A DNA stretch of 35,488 bases from a virus. The position numbers and the translations under genes were made by a program. The DNA is taken from positions 1 to 35,488 of IMG/VR virus record IMGVR_UViG_3300035698_008788; one strand, given 5' to 3'. Below are positions 5,918-35,454 of the stretch, in pieces. Position 1 is the stretch's first letter. The number at the start of each line of letters is the position of its first letter. Under the pieces are notes generated by a model that saw only the letters and a program-made list of their open reading frames with translations, was not told the DNA's origin and did not search any database.

Positions 5918-6356
5918 CTTCACGAAAGAAGAACTTATGACGATGGAATATGCAGTTGATGTTTGTATTTCTGAAGACGGAAGTGACGACGATTTAATGA
6001 AAAAATTAAACTCCATGATTAATAACTATTGTGACCATGAAAATAAAATAGAATGCGCAGACTGCGGGGTAGTAAGATGCGGTCGCTGTGAAGAAGAAAC
6101 CATGAATGACTTAAAAGTAGGCGATATAATTTGGCGTTTTGAAGACGATTACGACAACGGGATGCTAGATATTAGCGCTTTAAAACTTACTTATCGAACA
6201 ATTTTAAAAATAGAGGATGGTATTGTTTTAACAGATGCAAATAAATTCTGGGAAAACCTGCTATGGATTGATAAGAATTTTTATAGAACAAGAACAGAAG
6301 CAGTAAATGACTTAATGGCATTCGCTCAGTGGATGTATGAAGATGACGAAGATTAA
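5910..6356 (+). CDS. Hypothetical 148-residue protein with Cys-rich zinc-binding motif
   Basis: Two parts are visible. Residues 1-62 are acidic and end in a metal-binding pattern with Cys41, His43, Cys49, Cys52, Cys57 and Cys60 (CADCGVVRCGRC). Residues 65-148 start MNDLKVGDIIWRF and resemble short phage proteins that begin with a KVGD-IWRF strand. An in-frame ATG at 6102 could start this second part separately, so the gene may be a fusion. The start overlaps the upstream gene by 8 bases and the end overlaps the lipoprotein gene by 20. The function is unknown. Confidence 0.65.
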   Translation: MNDFTKEELMTMEYAVDVCISEDGSDDDLMKKLNSMINNYCDHENKIECADCGVVRCGRCEEETMNDLKVGDIIWRFEDDYDNGMLDISALKLTYRTILKIEDGIVLTDANKFWENLLWIDKNFYRTRTEAVNDLMAFAQWMYEDDED

Positions 6357-7264: not shown

Positions 7265-8248
7265 ATGAATTATACAGATAACAATCCATCACAACGATTT
7301 ACTGCATATCGCGCAATGATTCCATTTTACATTCTTTATGATTTAGATTTAAACGCCAATCATTTAAGGCTTTATGGCCAGATTGAACAAATGGAAAGTA
7401 ACCCTAATCCAAATGTATCCCCTACTTTTTCCTATAACTGGCTGGCTCAGCAATTAGGGATTAACAGAAGAAATACTATTAACACCGCAAATTTATTAAA
7501 AGAAAAAGGATACATTCAACATATTCAAACCTCAAAGGGTAATTGGGTATGGTTAACTGTAAAAAACCCAATATCTATTACAGACAATGGCATGGAATGC
7601 GACCCCCCTAGTGTCGCTGAGCGACACCCCCCTAGTGTCGCTCAGCGACACCCCCCCAGTGTCGCTGAGCGACACCCAAAGATCCTGGAAGTTAAAGTCC
7701 CAGAAGTTAAAAACCCTACTACTACTACTACTACTATTAATAATAGTGATAATAGTAGTAGTAGTAGTAACCATTTTTCAAAATACAAAAGCGACGAATT
7801 AAATGCCTTAATCAAAGCAAATACTGCATTCAACAAAGCAGAATCAGACGCAAAGACAAAACAATTTGCTTTAGATAACGACCGATGCAAAGAAAGTTTC
7901 GAGGCATTGTGGCAAGACACTGATGCAACGATTGATGAAGCATACGAGGCGTGCCAGTCGTACTGGCAAAATCTGGGAAAAGTAGCCGGCTGGGGAGCAT
8001 TCAATAAATTTTTGCAGAATCCTAAATCAGTTGAATCGTTTAAACGGCCTCAAAAAACAGAAAAACAAACAAATCAAAAAGAAAAGCCTAATTCTGAAAA
8101 GTTGGAGTATTTTGAATATCAAAAACAAGCGGACGCTGATATACGATTAAATCCCTTAGCAAAAAATGAAAAGACATTAAATTTTGAATCGTGGGTTGAA
8201 GCAGGAAAGCCAGATACTCATATGATTTATGTTAGATCTAAAAAATGA
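7265..8248 (+). CDS. Replication initiator, lambda O-like, with winged-helix N-terminus
   Basis: A 327-residue protein organised like phage O-type initiators. Residues ~10-100 form a winged helix-turn-helix (LRLYGQIEQ, YNWLAQQLGINRRNTINTA, LLKEKGYIQHIQTSKGNW). Residues ~114-137 are three octapeptides (PPSVAERH type) encoded by DNA iterons, then a Thr/Ile/Asn/Ser homopolymer linker (~150-169). The C-terminal part contains LWQDTDATIDEAYEACQSYW and GWGAFNKFLQNP, likely the partner-binding region. GAGGA lies 10 bases before the ATG. It starts the replication operon and its stop overlaps the next start by 4 bases. No helicase or DnaC-like loader is recognised downstream, so host helicase recruitment is inferred. 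Confidence 0.8.
   Translation: MNYTDNNPSQRFTAYRAMIPFYILYDLDLNANHLRLYGQIEQMESNPNPNVSPTFSYNWLAQQLGINRRNTINTANLLKEKGYIQHIQTSKGNWVWLTVKNPISITDNGMECDPPSVAERHPPSVAQRHPPSVAERHPKILEVKVPEVKNPTTTTTTINNSDNSSSSSNHFSKYKSDELNALIKANTAFNKAESDAKTKQFALDNDRCKESFEALWQDTDATIDEAYEACQSYWQNLGKVAGWGAFNKFLQNPKSVESFKRPQKTEKQTNQKEKPNSEKLEYFEYQKQADADIRLNPLAKNEKTLNFESWVEAGKPDTHMIYVRSKK
7604..7675 (+). repeat. Putative replication origin: three 24-bp iterons with internal dyads
   Basis: Inside the initiator gene there are three tandem 24-base units. Each contains a 17-base dyad GTGTCGCTSAGCGACAC (7611-7627, 7635-7651, 7659-7675), flanked by C-rich spacers. The dyads are perfect around a single central base (G, C, G). Lambda's origin has the same logic: symmetric iterons inside O, followed by an AT-rich segment. 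The GC-rich dyads stand out from the AT-rich surroundings. Confidence 0.8.
7716..7770 (+). repeat. CTA/TAG trinucleotide inverted repeat beside the iterons
   Basis: Seven CTA triplets (7716-7736) run into TTA, and a mirror set TAA plus five TAG triplets follows (7750-7767). This gives a perfect 18-bp stem (7722-7739 with 7750-7767) around a 10-base loop. It encodes runs of Thr and Ser. It lies about 40 bases after the iterons, the position of the unwinding region in lambda-type origins. Confidence 0.85.
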
Positions 8249-8490
8249 ATGAAATTATTTTTATAAAATATTTGGTTAATGAGATTGCGCGCAATCAAAT
8301 AAATGTAACAAAAGAAGTTTATCAAGAAATAAAGGATTATATCATCAGCCAGGATGGTCAATTAGCTTATGAAAGATTCTTAAGAAGCCAATGTTTTATA
8401 GATTTAGCCAATAAGAGAAATAAATACACAGGCTATCATTCCACTATGAAAAATTTATCCGATAGCGCTCGAGAAGAATTTAAAAAATGA
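8245..8490 (+). CDS. Hypothetical 81-residue protein in replication operon
   Basis: Not recognised. Helical and charged, beginning MNEIIFIKYLVNEIARNQINV and ending SDSAREEFKK. It is coupled by 4-base ATGA overlaps to the initiator before it and to the next gene after it. The position matches where lambdoid phages carry a helicase loader, but it is much shorter than lambda P or DnaC and has no Walker motif, so that role is not claimed. Confidence 0.7.
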   Translation: MNEIIFIKYLVNEIARNQINVTKEVYQEIKDYIISQDGQLAYERFLRSQCFIDLANKRNKYTGYHSTMKNLSDSAREEFKK

Positions 8491-8741
8491 ATATCATACC
8501 CATGATGTCCGAATTCTTATCAGCCGCCCAACGCGACAACGTACAACTGCTTCACGAAGACATCACTTTCATTAAAAAATGTTTAACTAGAATCCCAAGA
8601 GAACGCCATAGGGACGTTTTACGAGCTTATTTAAGTAAGTGGTATGAGTGTATATCTAATCATGAGAACGTCGTATCAACGCAAAATGAAGGGCGTAGAA
8701 TCGCCAATGCTTACATCAGGGAGAAACAAATAACTATTTGA
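8487..8741 (+). CDS. Hypothetical 84-residue protein in replication operon
   Basis: Not recognised. Basic and helical, with CLTRIPRERHRDVLRAYLSKWYECISNHE in the middle and a basic C-terminus (EGRRIANAYIREKQ). The start overlaps the preceding stop by 4 bases. The Arg-rich central helix could contact nucleic acid. Last gene of the replication block. Confidence 0.7.
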   Translation: MNIIPMMSEFLSAAQRDNVQLLHEDITFIKKCLTRIPRERHRDVLRAYLSKWYECISNHENVVSTQNEGRRIANAYIREKQITI

Positions 8742-9301: not shown

Positions 9302-9508
9302 GTGAAAGGCACTGTTCAATGGTTTGATGAAAAAAAAGGGATAGGTTTTATTGTCGGCGATGACGATCAAAGTTATTTTGTGCATTACAAAGAAATTCAG
9401 AGCAATAAGAGGTTTAAGACGCTTACAAAAGGGTCTGAAGTTACGTTTACGTGTGATAAAAGTCCAAAAGGTTTGTTTGCTACAAACATTCAAGAGCTTG
9501 AAGTTTAG
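9302..9508 (+). CDS. Cold-shock domain protein (CspA family)
   Basis: Small OB-fold RNA/ssDNA-binding protein acting as RNA chaperone. From the GTG at 9302 it is 68 residues, the usual Csp length, with TVQWF, RNP1 (KKGIGFI, residues 11-17) and RNP2 (YFVHY, 25-29). GGGAG lies 6 bases before the GTG; an in-frame ATG at 9251 would add an unlike extension. A leader of about 136 bases with a GCGAG/CTCGC inverted repeat (around 9204-9230) precedes it. It converges on csrA with a 29-base overlap of the 3' ends. Confidence 0.93.
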   Translation: MKGTVQWFDEKKGIGFIVGDDDQSYFVHYKEIQSNKRFKTLTKGSEVTFTCDKSPKGLFATNIQELEV

Positions 9509-9689
9509 CCAGTTCTTCTTCTTTTTTTATTATGTCGTAAATTTCACGACGATGCACTGAGATATTGTTTGGGGCTGTGATACCTAGTCTTGCTTGCGTT
9601 CCATAATATCCGTTATTTCTTAAGACTGTAATCATGATGTCGTCACCGAGCATGATCGATTCACCGGGTCTTCTTGATAGAATTAACAT
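9480..9689 (-). CDS. csrA: CsrA/RsmA-type translational regulator
   Basis: Homologue of the RNA-binding regulator CsrA, which binds GGA motifs in mRNA leaders and alters translation or stability. The 69-residue protein has MLILSRRPGESIMLGDDI, IMITVL, and the conserved binding strand SVHRREIY, where Arg47 corresponds to the key Arg44 of E. coli CsrA. A short insertion (RNNGYYG) lengthens the beta3-beta4 turn compared with the classical protein. It is the last gene of a leftward three-gene operon. Phage and mobile-element CsrA copies are known, notably in Legionella and Pseudomonas elements; targeting of host RNAs here is inference. Confidence 0.95.
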   Translation of the reverse strand: MLILSRRPGESIMLGDDIMITVLRNNGYYGTQARLGITAPNNISVHRREIYDIIKKEEELAKLQALECL

Positions 9690-9732
9690 AAAACTTTCAT
9701 CCTTAGTTGTGTTTTCCGTTAAAAATTACTGA

Positions 9733-9873
9733 TTAGTTTTCGTCGTTTTCGTCATACACTTCGCTCCATGGATTGTCCCACGCCAGCTCATGATTTGCAC
9801 GCTCTACAGCTTCAAAATAGTCTTCATCGCCATAAATGTTGTCGTTTCTTCCTTCGTCATCGTAATTAGTCAT
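9733..9873 (-). CDS. Hypothetical 46-residue acidic protein
   Basis: Reads MTNYDDEGRNDNIYGDEDYF and ends WSEVYDENDEN, highly acidic and rich in aromatic residues. The charge pattern resembles DNA-mimic or inhibitor proteins in a general way only. GGAT lies about 7 bases before the ATG, and the start overlaps the end of the upstream gene by 8 bases. It is followed by csrA after 43 bases. Confidence 0.6.
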   Translation of the reverse strand: MTNYDDEGRNDNIYGDEDYFEAVERANHELAWDNPWSEVYDENDEN

Positions 9874-10072
9874 GTATTTTATCCAATTGTTTTAATAGTC
9901 GTTTGCAATTTTGTTTCAGTAGAAGTCCTTCTTCTTTTGATAGTGATTGCATGTACTCGTAATCGTCTAAATTGTCTGCATTTAAAGCGCTTATTGTGTA
10001 GTAGAAATACTCATTCATTTCTCGTTTTACTTTAAATATAATTTTTGTGTCTGTTAAGTCATTGATGTTCAT
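9866..10072 (-). CDS. Hypothetical 68-residue protein, first gene of the csrA operon
   Basis: Not recognised. It begins MNINDLTDTKIIFKVKREMNEYFYY and ends KRLLKQLDKIHD: a beta-rich first third and helical remainder. AAGGA lies 9 bases before the ATG. It follows a strong leftward promoter by about 100 bases, and its stop overlaps the next start. Confidence 0.65.
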   Translation of the reverse strand: MNINDLTDTKIIFKVKREMNEYFYYTISALNADNLDDYEYMQSLSKEEGLLLKQNCKRLLKQLDKIHD

Positions 10073-10098
10073 TTTAACTTATCCTTTTATTTACCAAT

Positions 10099-10244
10099 AT
10101 TTGCAAATAAAATGCAAAGGAATATAGGTAATTATATATATCGCTACACCTACTTTTTTGTGTGTATGCCGCTATTATAATTACTTTGCATGTTTATGTA
10201 AAGCAGTTTATATAAAATAATTATAATATTTTATTGTTTGCATG
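10099..10244. repeat. Recurrent TTTGCAT motif in the csrA-operon control region
   Basis: The motif TTTGCAT or its complement recurs: ATTTGCAAAT palindrome (10099-10108), ATGCAAAG (10112-10119), CTTTGCAT (10184-10191) paired with ATGTAAAG (10196-10203), and TTTGCATG (10237-10244). The CTTTGCAT/ATGTAAAG pair forms a dyad over the leftward -35. The clustering around one promoter suggests operator sites. Confidence 0.5.
10174..10202 (-). promoter_or_regulatory. Strong leftward promoter for the csrA operon
   Basis: On the minus strand TTTACA (10197-10202) and TATAAT (10174-10179) are exactly 17 bases apart: 11 of 12 consensus bases. It points at the 68-residue gene, the 46-residue gene and csrA. 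A TTTGCAT dyad overlaps the -35. Confidence 0.7.
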
Positions 10245-10301
10245 CGAGCAAGTCATGAGCATCGATTAGATTGCAAGCTGTGCGCGAGATGTGTTAACTT
10301 T

Positions 10302-10338
10302 CCCACAGAGATATCCACAAACTCTGTGGGTATATAAT
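10302..10338 (+). promoter_or_regulatory. Candidate late promoter with dyad in place of a -35
   Basis: A perfect TATAAT (10333-10338) is preceded by a perfect 9-bp inverted repeat, CCCACAGAG (10302-10310) and CTCTGTGGG (10322-10330), with an 11-base loop. No -35 hexamer lies at 16-18 bases. It stands 36 bases before the first gene of a unidirectional run through terminase and head genes. An activator site or a repressor operator both fit. Confidence 0.5.
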
Positions 10339-10373: not shown

Positions 10374-10547
10374 ATGAGTAGTAAAAGATGTGAGCTTTGT
10401 AATGGTAAAAAGAAAATAATTGGATTGGGTATGATTGAAAAGGACTGCGATGAATGCAACGGTGTCGGTTATGTTCAGATTAAGACTGAAGTTGAAGTGA
10501 AAATTGGAAAGATTAGAGCTGTTAAAGATAAAATAATAGCTAATTAA
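10374..10547 (+). CDS. Small DnaJ-type zinc-finger protein (57 residues)
   Basis: Two Cys-X2-Cys knuckles, CELCNG at residues 6-11 and CDECNGVGY at 25-33, match the CxxCxGxG repeats of the DnaJ cysteine-rich domain, so one zinc ion is likely bound. The C-terminal ~25 residues are Lys/Val-rich. Such mini-zinc proteins are common between phage replication and packaging genes; their role is unknown. GGA lies 8 bases before the ATG. It is the first gene after the candidate late promoter. Confidence 0.7.
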   Translation: MSSKRCELCNGKKKIIGLGMIEKDCDECNGVGYVQIKTEVEVKIGKIRAVKDKIIAN

Positions 10548-10590: not shown

Positions 10591-10917
10591 ATGAAGGGAT
10601 CTATTGATAAGAAAAGAAAGCCTCATCGTCGTGCAGATTGTGGTACGTCTCAAAAAATAACCATTGCATATTACCTTTTGTCACAAAATAATTCGGATTC
10701 TGAAAAACTACAAGCGGCTATGGAGCACCCAAACTTATCTGCGATCGATAAAGCTTATTTTGATCAACGATATCTATTTATATTTAATGATAATAGCTTG
10801 CTTGGGTATGATGAAAAAAATGGTTTTTATGTCGCAGATTCCTGGGGTAGACGTGACATGGGCAAAAAGCCTACACTAAAAGGAATTAATTCAAGAAAGG
10901 AAATATTCGTATCATGA
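10591..10917 (+). CDS. Hypothetical 108-residue protein
   Basis: Not recognised. The N-terminus is very basic (MKGSIDKKRKPHRRADCG), followed by helical segments (KITIAYYLLSQ, DKAYFDQRYLF) and a YDEKNGFYVADSWGRRD stretch. Only a weak GGA precedes the ATG. Its stop overlaps the small terminase start in an ATGA junction, which supports it as part of the packaging operon. Confidence 0.65.
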   Translation: MKGSIDKKRKPHRRADCGTSQKITIAYYLLSQNNSDSEKLQAAMEHPNLSAIDKAYFDQRYLFIFNDNSLLGYDEKNGFYVADSWGRRDMGKKPTLKGINSRKEIFVS

Positions 10918-11390
10918 CGATTCCAAAAGGTCGCCCTACAAAATTTAATGACGAATTAGCAGCAAAAATATGTCAATTAGTTGCTATTAATCCCATCGGT
11001 TTGCGAAGGTTATGCGACAAATATCCCGAGTTGCCGGCAAGTGAAACTATCAATATTTGGAGATGGGAAAAGAGAGATTTTTCGACCCAATACGCTATCG
11101 CAAAACAGCATCAAGCGGAATTGATGGTCGAATCGTTCGAAGAAGTAATCGACGATACTTCTACTTATGTTTATCAAGATGATAACGGTGTAACACGAAT
11201 TGATACAGGCATGATAGCTCAAGCGCGTCTTGTAATTGATACTAGAAAATGGACTGCCTCTAAGCTTGCTCCCAAAATATACGGAGACAAAAAAGAGGTC
11301 GAACAATTGCAGGGCGAGAACGAGCGCGTAAAAGCTGAACTTGCGGAGCTGAGAGCCAAACTTGATAAAGCTAATGTGTCCGAGTATTGA
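10914..11390 (+). CDS. terS: Terminase small subunit (Sf6 gp1-like)
   Basis: DNA-recognition subunit of the packaging motor. The 158-residue protein matches the Sf6-type small terminase: GRPTKF at the start, a helix-turn-helix around residues 27-52 (LRRLCDKYPELPASETINIWRW in pattern), then the hallmark ARLVIDTRKW (104-113) and KIYGDK (121-126). The C-terminus is a predicted coiled coil (EVEQLQGENERVKAELAELRAKL in pattern). It should form a ring that loads DNA into the large subunit. The pac or cos site often lies in or near this gene; none is evident. Confidence 0.92.
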   Translation: MTIPKGRPTKFNDELAAKICQLVAINPIGLRRLCDKYPELPASETINIWRWEKRDFSTQYAIAKQHQAELMVESFEEVIDDTSTYVYQDDNGVTRIDTGMIAQARLVIDTRKWTASKLAPKIYGDKKEVEQLQGENERVKAELAELRAKLDKANVSEY

Positions 11391-11393
11391 TGT

Positions 11394-11633
11394 GTGATAA
11401 TTGAGCATAACGATGAAATAACTATTGATTATGATAAACTGAAATTCAGTTGTGCTAATTGCAATAAAAATGGTTGTGACTTAGTTGTCGATGGTTATGT
11501 ATATACAGATTTAGATGATAATGGACTATGCGTATCTTGTTACGAATCATTAAAGAAGCTCGGCTCATCAAGAAGGTTTTTGTCTAAATGGATCGGGGTT
11601 TCTCGTCCACTAACGATGAATATTTATGATTGA
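11394..11633 (+). CDS. Hypothetical 79-residue Cys-rich protein between terminase genes
   Basis: Possible zinc-binding protein with CANCNKNGC (Cys20, Cys23 and Cys28) and CVSC (Cys46, Cys49). It starts at GTG 11394, three bases after the small terminase stop, with no strong ribosome binding site, and overlaps the large terminase start by 8 bases. The four-cysteine arrangement suggests a single zinc site. Not recognised as a known terminase accessory or HNH protein. Confidence 0.55.
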   Translation: MIIEHNDEITIDYDKLKFSCANCNKNGCDLVVDGYVYTDLDDNGLCVSCYESLKKLGSSRRFLSKWIGVSRPLTMNIYD

Positions 11634-13173
11634 CCAAGATAAAGAGCAATTAGCCGCTGAGCTACGTGGATCATTGTTAAGATTTACTCAGTTTTTTTAT
11701 CCTCTTTTAACCGCTCGTGATTTTATTATTAGTAATCCACCCGGCCGCGAACCGCATCAAATAACAATTTGTCGTGCATTAACTCAAGCTTTTAGACTTG
11801 AGATACCCAACAATCGACTGATGATCAACATAGCACCTGGCTCGGGTAAATCCACGCTTTTAGCTGCATGGGTAGCGTGGTCAATGGCAAGCTATCCCGA
11901 CTCCCGTTTTTTGTATATCTCATATAGCAAAGTTTTAGCAACTAAACATAATGAGACAATTAAGCGCATTATACAGTTGCCGCACTATAAATATCTTTTT
12001 GATGTATCAATTAAACACGACAGCAAAGCAAAAGATAGCTGGCAGACTACGGCAGGCGGCTCGTGTGCAAGCTTTGGATCTGGCGGCGCTATCGTGGGAC
12101 AGGATGCCGGGTTGCCGGGTCTCGATAGATTTTCTGGAGGTGTGGTGGTTGACGATGCACACAAAGTCGACGAAGCACATAGTGATACTATAAGAGAGAG
12201 CGTGATAGAAAATTATCGAGAGACTATACAGCAACGTATGCGGGGTATACTTGTACCTATAATAAATATAGGGCAACGAGTGCATGAAGCAGACTTAGCA
12301 GCTTATTTATTAGAAGGCAAAGATGGGTACAAATGGCATAGCGTCATACTAAAATCGATAGATGAAGCAGGTAACGCGATGTATCCTGAAGCGTTTCCAC
12401 TTGAGATGCTGCGTATAAAACAAGCGCGTGACCCTTATGTTTTTGCATCCCAATTTCAACAAGACCCCATCCCTGCGGGTGGCGCATTATTCAAGCCCGA
12501 GTGGTTCGTGATGCTTGACGAAGAACCAGAACTTTTATGTACATTCATCACAGCAGACACAGCAGAAACTAGCAAGTCTTGGAATGACGCGACCGCATTT
12601 AGTTTTTTCGGTTTGTATGAGATAGAAAATCAGGGCGTTAAAACTGGCGAATTAGGATTACATTGGCTGGATTGCATAGAGCTTCGCATTGAACCAAAAG
12701 ACTTGAAAGCAGCATTTATTGAATTTTGGCAAGGTTGTATGATACATCCGAAGCCCCCCTTAATTGCAGCAATTGAAAAAAAATCCACAGGTGTCACTTT
12801 AGTCTCTGTACTGCAAGAATTGCGCGGCATACAGATTAGACAGATAGAGCGTACACGGGCATCAGGAAGCAAAACGCAGCGATTTTTAGAGATGCAACCC
12901 TACATCGCTTCACGATCAATATCATTTACAGACAATGCAAGACACGTTAAATTATGCCTGGATCACATGAGTAAGATAACGGCCAACAATGCTCATAGAT
13001 TTGACGATATGGCCGATACTCTATCAGACGCAATTCATATAGCACTAATCGATAAAACATTGCATTATATACCAAAGCAAAAAGACAATGTTTCTGCTAA
13101 GATATACGCAGATGAGCGCACTAATTTAGAACTACAGCGGGATGCGTACAATTATGACGAAAGTGGATTTTAA
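11626..13173 (+). CDS. terL: Terminase large subunit
   Basis: ATP-driven DNA packaging motor and headful or cos nuclease (515 residues). ATPase domain: Walker A APGSGKST at residues 70-77 and Walker B VVVDD at 173-177, followed by HKVDEAHS in place of the usual DDPxK..EAxS. RNase H-fold nuclease domain: Asp311 in ITADTAETS, Glu384 in AAIEKKSTG and Asp461/Asp464 in RFDDMADTLSDA, all three acidic sites present. The full length is normal for the family. It overlaps the preceding gene by 8 bases, and its end overlaps the portal gene. Confidence 0.97.
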   Translation: MIDQDKEQLAAELRGSLLRFTQFFYPLLTARDFIISNPPGREPHQITICRALTQAFRLEIPNNRLMINIAPGSGKSTLLAAWVAWSMASYPDSRFLYISYSKVLATKHNETIKRIIQLPHYKYLFDVSIKHDSKAKDSWQTTAGGSCASFGSGGAIVGQDAGLPGLDRFSGGVVVDDAHKVDEAHSDTIRESVIENYRETIQQRMRGILVPIINIGQRVHEADLAAYLLEGKDGYKWHSVILKSIDEAGNAMYPEAFPLEMLRIKQARDPYVFASQFQQDPIPAGGALFKPEWFVMLDEEPELLCTFITADTAETSKSWNDATAFSFFGLYEIENQGVKTGELGLHWLDCIELRIEPKDLKAAFIEFWQGCMIHPKPPLIAAIEKKSTGVTLVSVLQELRGIQIRQIERTRASGSKTQRFLEMQPYIASRSISFTDNARHVKLCLDHMSKITANNAHRFDDMADTLSDAIHIALIDKTLHYIPKQKDNVSAKIYADERTNLELQRDAYNYDESGF

Positions 13174-34758: not shown

Positions 34759-34929
34759 TCATAAATCATCCGCGTTTGTTTTGCTTTCGTTTTTCAGCGA
34801 ATATTTCATTAAATCTTTTATCCACTCAGACAAATTGACACCTTTTTCTTTTGCAGCTTGCTGTGCACCAACCTTAAGCCATGTTGGCATATTCAAAGCA
34901 ACCCTTGATGAACCTTTGCTTATCTGCAT
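34759..34929 (-). CDS. Ribbon-helix-helix DNA-binding protein (56 residues)
   Basis: Small regulator of the Arc/CopG/MetJ type. A beta strand (SSRVALNMP) is followed by two helices (TWLKVGAQQAAKEKG and NLSEWIKDLMKYSLKN). ATG 34929 is preferred because the longer form from 34974 would overlap the divergent promoter and the tnpB-like start. It is divergent from the TnpB remnant, with an inverted repeat between, so it probably represses both promoters. It could also be an orphan antitoxin; no toxin gene is present. Confidence 0.7.
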   Translation of the reverse strand: MQISKGSSRVALNMPTWLKVGAQQAAKEKGVNLSEWIKDLMKYSLKNESKTNADDL

Positions 34930-34966
34930 AATTATACTTGCGCCTTTTGATAAATGAAGTATAATT
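34930..34966. promoter_or_regulatory. Divergent -10 boxes inside a perfect inverted repeat
   Basis: AATTATACTT (34930-34939) and AAGTATAATT (34957-34966) form a perfect 10-bp inverted repeat around 17 bases. Each arm contains a TATAAT on the strand facing outward, toward the RHH gene (34931-34936, minus) and toward the tnpB remnant (34960-34965, plus). One dimeric regulator could shut both promoters. Confidence 0.65.
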
Positions 34967-34972
34967 GTACCC

Positions 34973-35454
34973 ATGAAAACAAATAAAGCCTACAAGTTTC
35001 GCATTTATCCGACCGAGCCGCAGATCAAGCAATTAGCGGTTGAGTTTGGTAATGCGCGTTTTGTGTGGAATCATGCGCTTGGTATGCGAAAGAAGACTTA
35101 CAGCAGACGCAAAGAGAATATGAATTACATTAGTCTTAGTAAGCACGTAACTCAATTAAAGCGTACAACACGCTACCACTGGCTTAAACAGTCGACTGCT
35201 GGCGTACTGCTCAAACTGCCTAAACTTGGCGAAATTAATCTCAAGTGGTCGCAGTACCCAGAAGGCACACCCAAAATGGCTACTGTGAGCAAGACACCAA
35301 GCGGGATATGAAATTATCAGATCGTGTGTTTAATTGTACGTGCGGAATTAGCATGTGTCGCGATCTTAATGCCGCGCAAAATATTAAAATGGCGGGGAAC
35401 GTCATGCTTGGAGAATCATATCAACCTGTTAGTGTCGCTGAATTAGCGGCATAG
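34973..35454 (+). pseudogene. tnpB: Decayed TnpB (IS200/IS605-type OrfB)
   Basis: The first ~85 codons are a typical TnpB N-terminus: KAYKFRIYPTEPQIKQLA, NARFVWNHAL and a following helix. The frame then jumps to a later part of the protein (LPKLGEINLKWSQ, TPKMATVSKTPSG) and stops at 35309-35311. The true C-terminus continues in another frame: KLSDRVFNCTCG, then RDLNAAQNIK (the third RuvC motif), to the stop at 35452-35454. At least two deletions and a frameshift have removed RuvC motifs I-II, so an intact ~370-400-residue nuclease is impossible. No TnpA is present. The last 34 bases may hold part of an element end. Confidence 0.88.

Follow-up and report, generated by a model that had tools for sequence, protein, structure and literature searches.

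A csrA gene of an uncultivated phage lineage occupies a conserved accessory slot beside the terminase genes. The most probable reading, to which a probability of about 0.6 is assigned, is that csrA is an interchangeable payload of this slot which acts mainly on host mRNAs, and that the csp gene facing it was acquired separately. The sequence analyzed (the window) is an IMG/VR virus record of 35,488 bases with genes of the kind expected for a tailed phage. In its left part are lysozyme, Rha, and SSB genes, along with RecT and YqaJ recombination genes, and rightward genes also continue past the terminase pair (10914-13173). A prophage-match search of genomes, made to identify a host, gave one match only, to a Bacteroidetes metagenome bin that is possibly misbinned.

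Organization of the csrA locus in the window and its relatives

The features at and around the junction between csp and csrA are as follows.

7265..8248, + strand: DnaD/helicase-loader-like replication protein (weak match: phrog_7882 E=0.005, HTH_36 E=0.01), encoded upstream within the rightward early operon
8487..8741, + strand: 84-aa ORF in the rightward early operon; in relatives its homologues adjoin csp and/or face csrA
9302..9508, + strand: csp, 68-aa cold-shock-domain protein with a GTG start, final gene of the rightward early operon
9480..9508, convergent: 29-bp overlap of the csp and csrA 3′ ends, from coordinates
9480..9689, − strand: csrA, predicted 69-aa RNA-binding translational regulator of the CsrA/RsmA family, final gene of the leftward operon
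9733..9873, − strand: 46-aa very acidic ORF, second gene of the leftward operon
9866..10072, − strand: 68-aa ORF of the 'DLTDT' family, first gene of the leftward operon
10174..10202, − strand: putative sigma-70-type promoter of the leftward operon, TTTACA-17-TATAAT, 11/12 match
10374..10547, + strand: small CxxCxG zinc-ribbon-like protein, first gene of the rightward late operon; most relatives have a homologue immediately ahead of terS
10914..11390, + strand: terminase small subunit, terS (PF20901, E=4.7e-24)
11626..13173, + strand: terminase large subunit, terL (phrog_38, E=2.4e-81), which defined the relatives

An earlier, sequence-only reading of this DNA had placed csrA in an operon with two small proteins, one very acidic, behind a near-consensus leftward promoter, and this layout was borne out. 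The promoter at 10202..10174 agrees with the consensus at 11 of 12 positions, a score reached in 2.6% of shuffles of that intergenic stretch. Of 13 phages examined, eight had a leftward promoter with a match of at least 11/12 in the corresponding intergenic region, and one had such a promoter in the rightward direction. Both small ORFs are co-directional with csrA, and the acidic ORF includes 16 Asp or Glu and two Arg residues among 46. The 9866-10072 ORF had no significant Pfam or PHROG match and its DLTDT protein was modeled with low confidence (pLDDT 66). The DLTDT family heads the leftward operon in nine other distinct phages that do not possess csrA, in which the following gene usually encodes a small, acidic, Cys-rich 'DGWHGDE' protein. 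The 9733-9873 ORF takes the place of this protein in the window, without a significant sequence match to the family. As the first gene of the operon is common to relatives that lack csrA, the latter is a payload inserted in an older operon.

The DGWHGDE family comprises 25 distinct members, encoded near the start of the leftward operon (L041, L035, L030, L056, L120, L116, and others). A further family, 'TLYDLM', has 20 distinct members in other leftward operons and no Pfam match above the cut-off; a relationship between it and the DLTDT family was considered, but was unsupported (hhalign probability 4%). Upstream of the late operon in the window, a perfect 9-bp inverted repeat, CCCACAGAG...CTCTGTGGG, at 10301-10329 is followed by TATAAT and is a candidate operator or hairpin. 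The zinc-ribbon protein encoded at 10374-10547 matches weakly to the DnaJ zinc domain and to Q-like antiterminators. At the contig end, a TnpB-like gene (34973-35454) apparently is broken, with HTH_OrfB_IS605 in one frame and the remainder in another, and a small ORF (34759-34974) diverges from it.

The relatives consisted of about 90 viral contigs (91 terminase records) from terminase searches, and 17 csrA-bearing records, the window included, were mapped. These genomes follow a common plan in which a rightward early operon, which contains a replication gene and sometimes has csp as its last gene, is followed by a leftward operon of small genes and then by a divergent late operon that encodes the zinc-ribbon protein, terS, and terL. 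In every one of the 17 records, csrA and the terminase genes were on opposite strands. Sixteen records had terS located, and in 14 of these csrA was upstream of it. In most of the 17, csrA was the last leftward gene and faced the early operon; in two near-identical phages csrA instead was positioned between terS and terL. The csrA/csp pair initially appeared unique to the window as a first survey had revealed neither csrA in terminase relatives nor a csp partner, a view that was overturned by the wider terminase search. The six csrA loci found first all lacked csp, and the same six were recovered when viral contigs were searched for csrA with an alignment. In the early region of one csrA-bearing relative (L005:8231-9442) an RtcB RNA ligase is encoded (PF01139, E=1e-125). 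No description of the slot or of its gene families was found in the literature searched, which was not exhaustive.

The CsrA protein and its RNA targets

The CsrA protein of the window matched PF02599 with E=9.8e-20 (70.7 bits vs. a 27-bit cut-off) across profile positions 1-52 of 53, and sequence matches in the PDB were obtained to RsmA of P. aeruginosa, CsrA of E. coli, and RsmE. The predicted structure had a pLDDT of 92.4 and its best PDB matches in Foldseek were CsrA, RsmA, and RsmE, with TM-scores by target mostly of 0.74-0.81. The claim that the homologue has kept its key arginine also was confirmed. Residue R47 is the counterpart of R44 in E. coli CsrA, and in an alignment of 16 distinct phage CsrA proteins of the lineage, which are 29-53% identical to that of the window, the R44 equivalent was invariant and R6 nearly so. 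Among the RNA-binding residues of the N-terminal MLIL-R motif and the R44 equivalent, L4, R6, R7, and R47 are retained. A three-residue insertion in the β2-β3 loop is peculiar to the window copy. Judged from its sequence, the window CsrA most likely still binds RNA. The dN/dS values for csrA were 0.36 and 0.15 in two close pairs in one sub-clade, within which the gene is under purifying selection. Overall, the phage CsrA is a genuine, conserved, and probably functional protein encoded in an operon.

ANGGA hairpins were sought in phage leaders as signs of viral targets. They were present in 33 of 191 leaders of csrA-bearing phages vs. 163 of 685 leaders of csrA-less relatives, and thus showed no excess where the regulator is encoded. 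Moreover, no Rfam match of note to a CsrB/RsmZ-like sponge RNA was evident between positions 6000 and 14000. The lack of a clade excess of ANGGA loops, together with the lack of a sponge-RNA family nearby, favors host mRNAs as the main targets of CsrA, although this is an argument from a negative. When the window alone was shuffled, five ANGGA motifs in leader loops were counted vs. 2.2 expected, a weak excess reached by one of 60 shuffles. The leader of csrA itself is among the five, and self-regulation or phage targets for CsrA are possible given this excess.

Regulation mainly of phage mRNAs, for example of its own operon or of a switch to late genes, nevertheless is an unlikely principal role for CsrA. 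The ribosome-binding site of csrA, AAGGATG, fits the core of the CsrA consensus and is predicted in a weak loop, and the operon is placed between the early and late genes, both of which, like the excess in the window, accord with viral targets. However, AAGGA-like sites are the ordinary Shine-Dalgarno sequences of these phages, ANGGA loops are no commoner in phages with csrA than in those without, and the gene is dispensable, with at least eight losses or gains. Action mainly on host mRNAs remains the preferred reading. The host sigma-70 RNA polymerase would start the leftward operon, which would carry small infection-stage genes with csrA as one interchangeable payload, usually the last, and CsrA probably would be expressed early in infection. 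The protein is expected to form the usual RNA-binding dimer and to bind GGA motifs at ribosome-binding sites, mainly those of host mRNAs, so that host translation, whether of physiology, motility, or defence genes, may be shifted in favor of the phage.

Csp and its pairing with csrA

The csp product matched PF00313 with E=1e-18 (67.4 bits vs. 27) across positions 1-65 of 66, and CspA, CspE, and CspC were matched in the PDB. The RNP1 motif is KGIGFI (vs. KGFGFI) and RNP2 is YFVHY (vs. VFVHF); one aromatic residue of RNP1 is replaced by Ile and the remainder are kept. An AGGGAG ribosome-binding site is located just 5′ of the GTG start at 9302, and csp in relatives is at the same place as in the window. 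On these sequence characteristics Csp is a genuine phage cold-shock protein. As described previously for this DNA, the csp gene (9302-9508, + strand) converges on csrA with 3′ ends that overlap by 29 bp. No terminator-like site was detected between the converging genes, and their transcripts presumably overlap.

The sequence-only reading had proposed further that the two genes form a control module and that their transcripts are mutually antisense. Both genes are authentic and their convergence recurs in five phages (the window, G102, G106, G107, and L211), but the two have been gained and lost separately and repeatedly, and most csrA phages do not possess csp and vice versa. Sixty-three of the 91 terminase records reach at least 3.5 kb upstream and so cover the spot: csrA was present in 14, csp in four, and both in three. 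At least eight gains or losses of csrA and at least four of csp were required on the terminase tree. Co-occurrence of the genes in the terminase clade exceeded the naive expectation (Fisher p=0.03, with the tree ignored), whereas a tree-aware independent-pairs test with few informative pairs gave a median p of 1. Antisense control was not supported by comparison with relatives: the spacing between csrA and csp is −29 bp in the window and 22, 37, and 1527 bp in G102, G106, and G107, respectively, so that the window is alone in having an overlap. The terminase of L211 is a different one, and a Fis-like gene sits between csrA and csp in this phage. This HTH gene is directly downstream of csrA and faces csp (L211:3564-4662; IMGVR_UViG_3300050821_005846), and the junction there brings three global bacterial regulators together.

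Co-selection of CsrA and Csp as one post-transcriptional control module, perhaps tuned by convergent antisense transcription, is distinctly improbable. The convergent arrangement in five phages, the presence of csrA in four of the five csp-bearing phages of the terminase clade, and the naive Fisher value leave room for some functional link. Against this, of roughly 38 viral records that carry csrA and 41 that carry csp, only about five of each include the partner; many of these records are fragments, and the last sets were searched within 6 kb only. In 16 records, representing about 10 distinct phages, csp occurs with a different terminase but at the same junction, with csrA absent in the 15 tested; further csp loci had no csrA within 6 kb, for a total of about 30 other csp phages without csrA nearby. 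When 60 GenBank csrA phages were compared to csp phages, no phage was in common among the matches listed. The overlap is not conserved in relatives, and the independent-pairs test, with its few informative pairs, was not significant. Convergence of csrA and csp instead follows from the genome plan, in which the rightward early operon and the leftward accessory operon end against each other, and the simplest account of the recurrent pair is that a single junction is shared by two optional genes. Csp would be an RNA chaperone acquired independently at the end of the replication operon, and the two genes would face each other through this plan and not as one circuit.

That csrA is a passenger or decaying gene without a present role is highly improbable: its patchy distribution and the loop insertion peculiar to the window copy accord with this view, but the frame is intact, a promoter and ribosome-binding site are present, the R44 equivalent is invariant, the CsrA fold is predicted confidently, and dN/dS is well below 1 in the sub-clade.

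Relation to known systems

A PAS-HisKA-HATPase kinase is encoded in one sub-clade of the lineage (G087, G089, G091, G097, G101, and G103), with a receiver domain too in G101 and G103. The kinase genes (loci L162/L163 in G101 and G103, L159 in G089, L160 in G097, L118/L161 in G087, and L123 in G091) are leftward and downstream of terS, in the interval from terS to terL but on the other strand, and are accompanied by a conserved partner protein of no known family. The csrA gene directly follows the kinase with a short overlap in G101 and G103, and is present at another position in the genomes of G087, G089, and G097. The combination of a viral sensor kinase and CsrA recalls the BarA/Gac-Csr/Rsm pathway. 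Speculatively, and with low likelihood, the lineage may keep a dedicated locus for taking over host post-transcriptional regulation, in which CsrA is mixed with Csp, a Fis-like protein or, in the one sub-clade, a hybrid sensor histidine kinase directly before csrA, as a viral counterpart of that pathway. If so, the window would be the CsrA plus Csp version.

The csrA and csp genes of the window both belong to kinds of phage gene that already are known. Sobrero and Valverde listed 30 csrA-bearing phages (PMC7366521), and Campa and colleagues identified many phage csrA genes in a survey of GenBank and IMG/VR, proposing that the proteins manipulate the host and act on host regulation including CRISPR-Cas, with an anti-CRISPR action (PMC8450108). 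The window CsrA matched 81 GenBank phage records. It shares family, key residues, and carriage by tailed phages with CsrA/RsmA proteins of Pseudomonas phages with RsmM, Vibrio phages, Burkholderia phage DC1, and Serratia phage Parlo (PMC7366521, PMC8450108), but is at most 60% identical to these proteins and has another genome context: its gene resides in a conserved leftward accessory operon beside terminase genes. In a CRISPRi-ART study, knockdown of gp28, the csrA homologue of phage PTXU04, led to smaller plaques (PMC11879866), which was the only phage csrA phenotype found in the literature searched. The gp28 protein likewise is described as a phage CsrA homologue, but belongs to a different phage with a known host (PMC11879866). 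Plasmids also carry csrA, as plasmid matches showed, and CsrT of Legionella integrative elements (named in PMC7366521), like plasmid csrA, is an example on mobile DNA that is thought to serve the element. However, CsrT is linked to conjugation genes, whereas csrA in the window accompanies genes for phage replication and the terminase. Cold-shock proteins also are common in phages, including Escherichia, Listeria, Enterococcus, and Lactococcus phages, and like the window Csp have a single cold-shock domain. The window Csp is at most 52% identical to these proteins and is distinguished by the position of its gene, which closes the replication operon and faces the accessory operon.

Phage CsrA homologues have been catalogued, yet almost none has a known role. 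The slot provides a natural series of phages with csrA, csp, both, or neither at the same place and with the neighboring operon genes named, which allows the benefit of a viral CsrA to be tested through comparison. Should phages employ CsrA to steer the translation or defence of the host, this would be a simple and widespread route of takeover.
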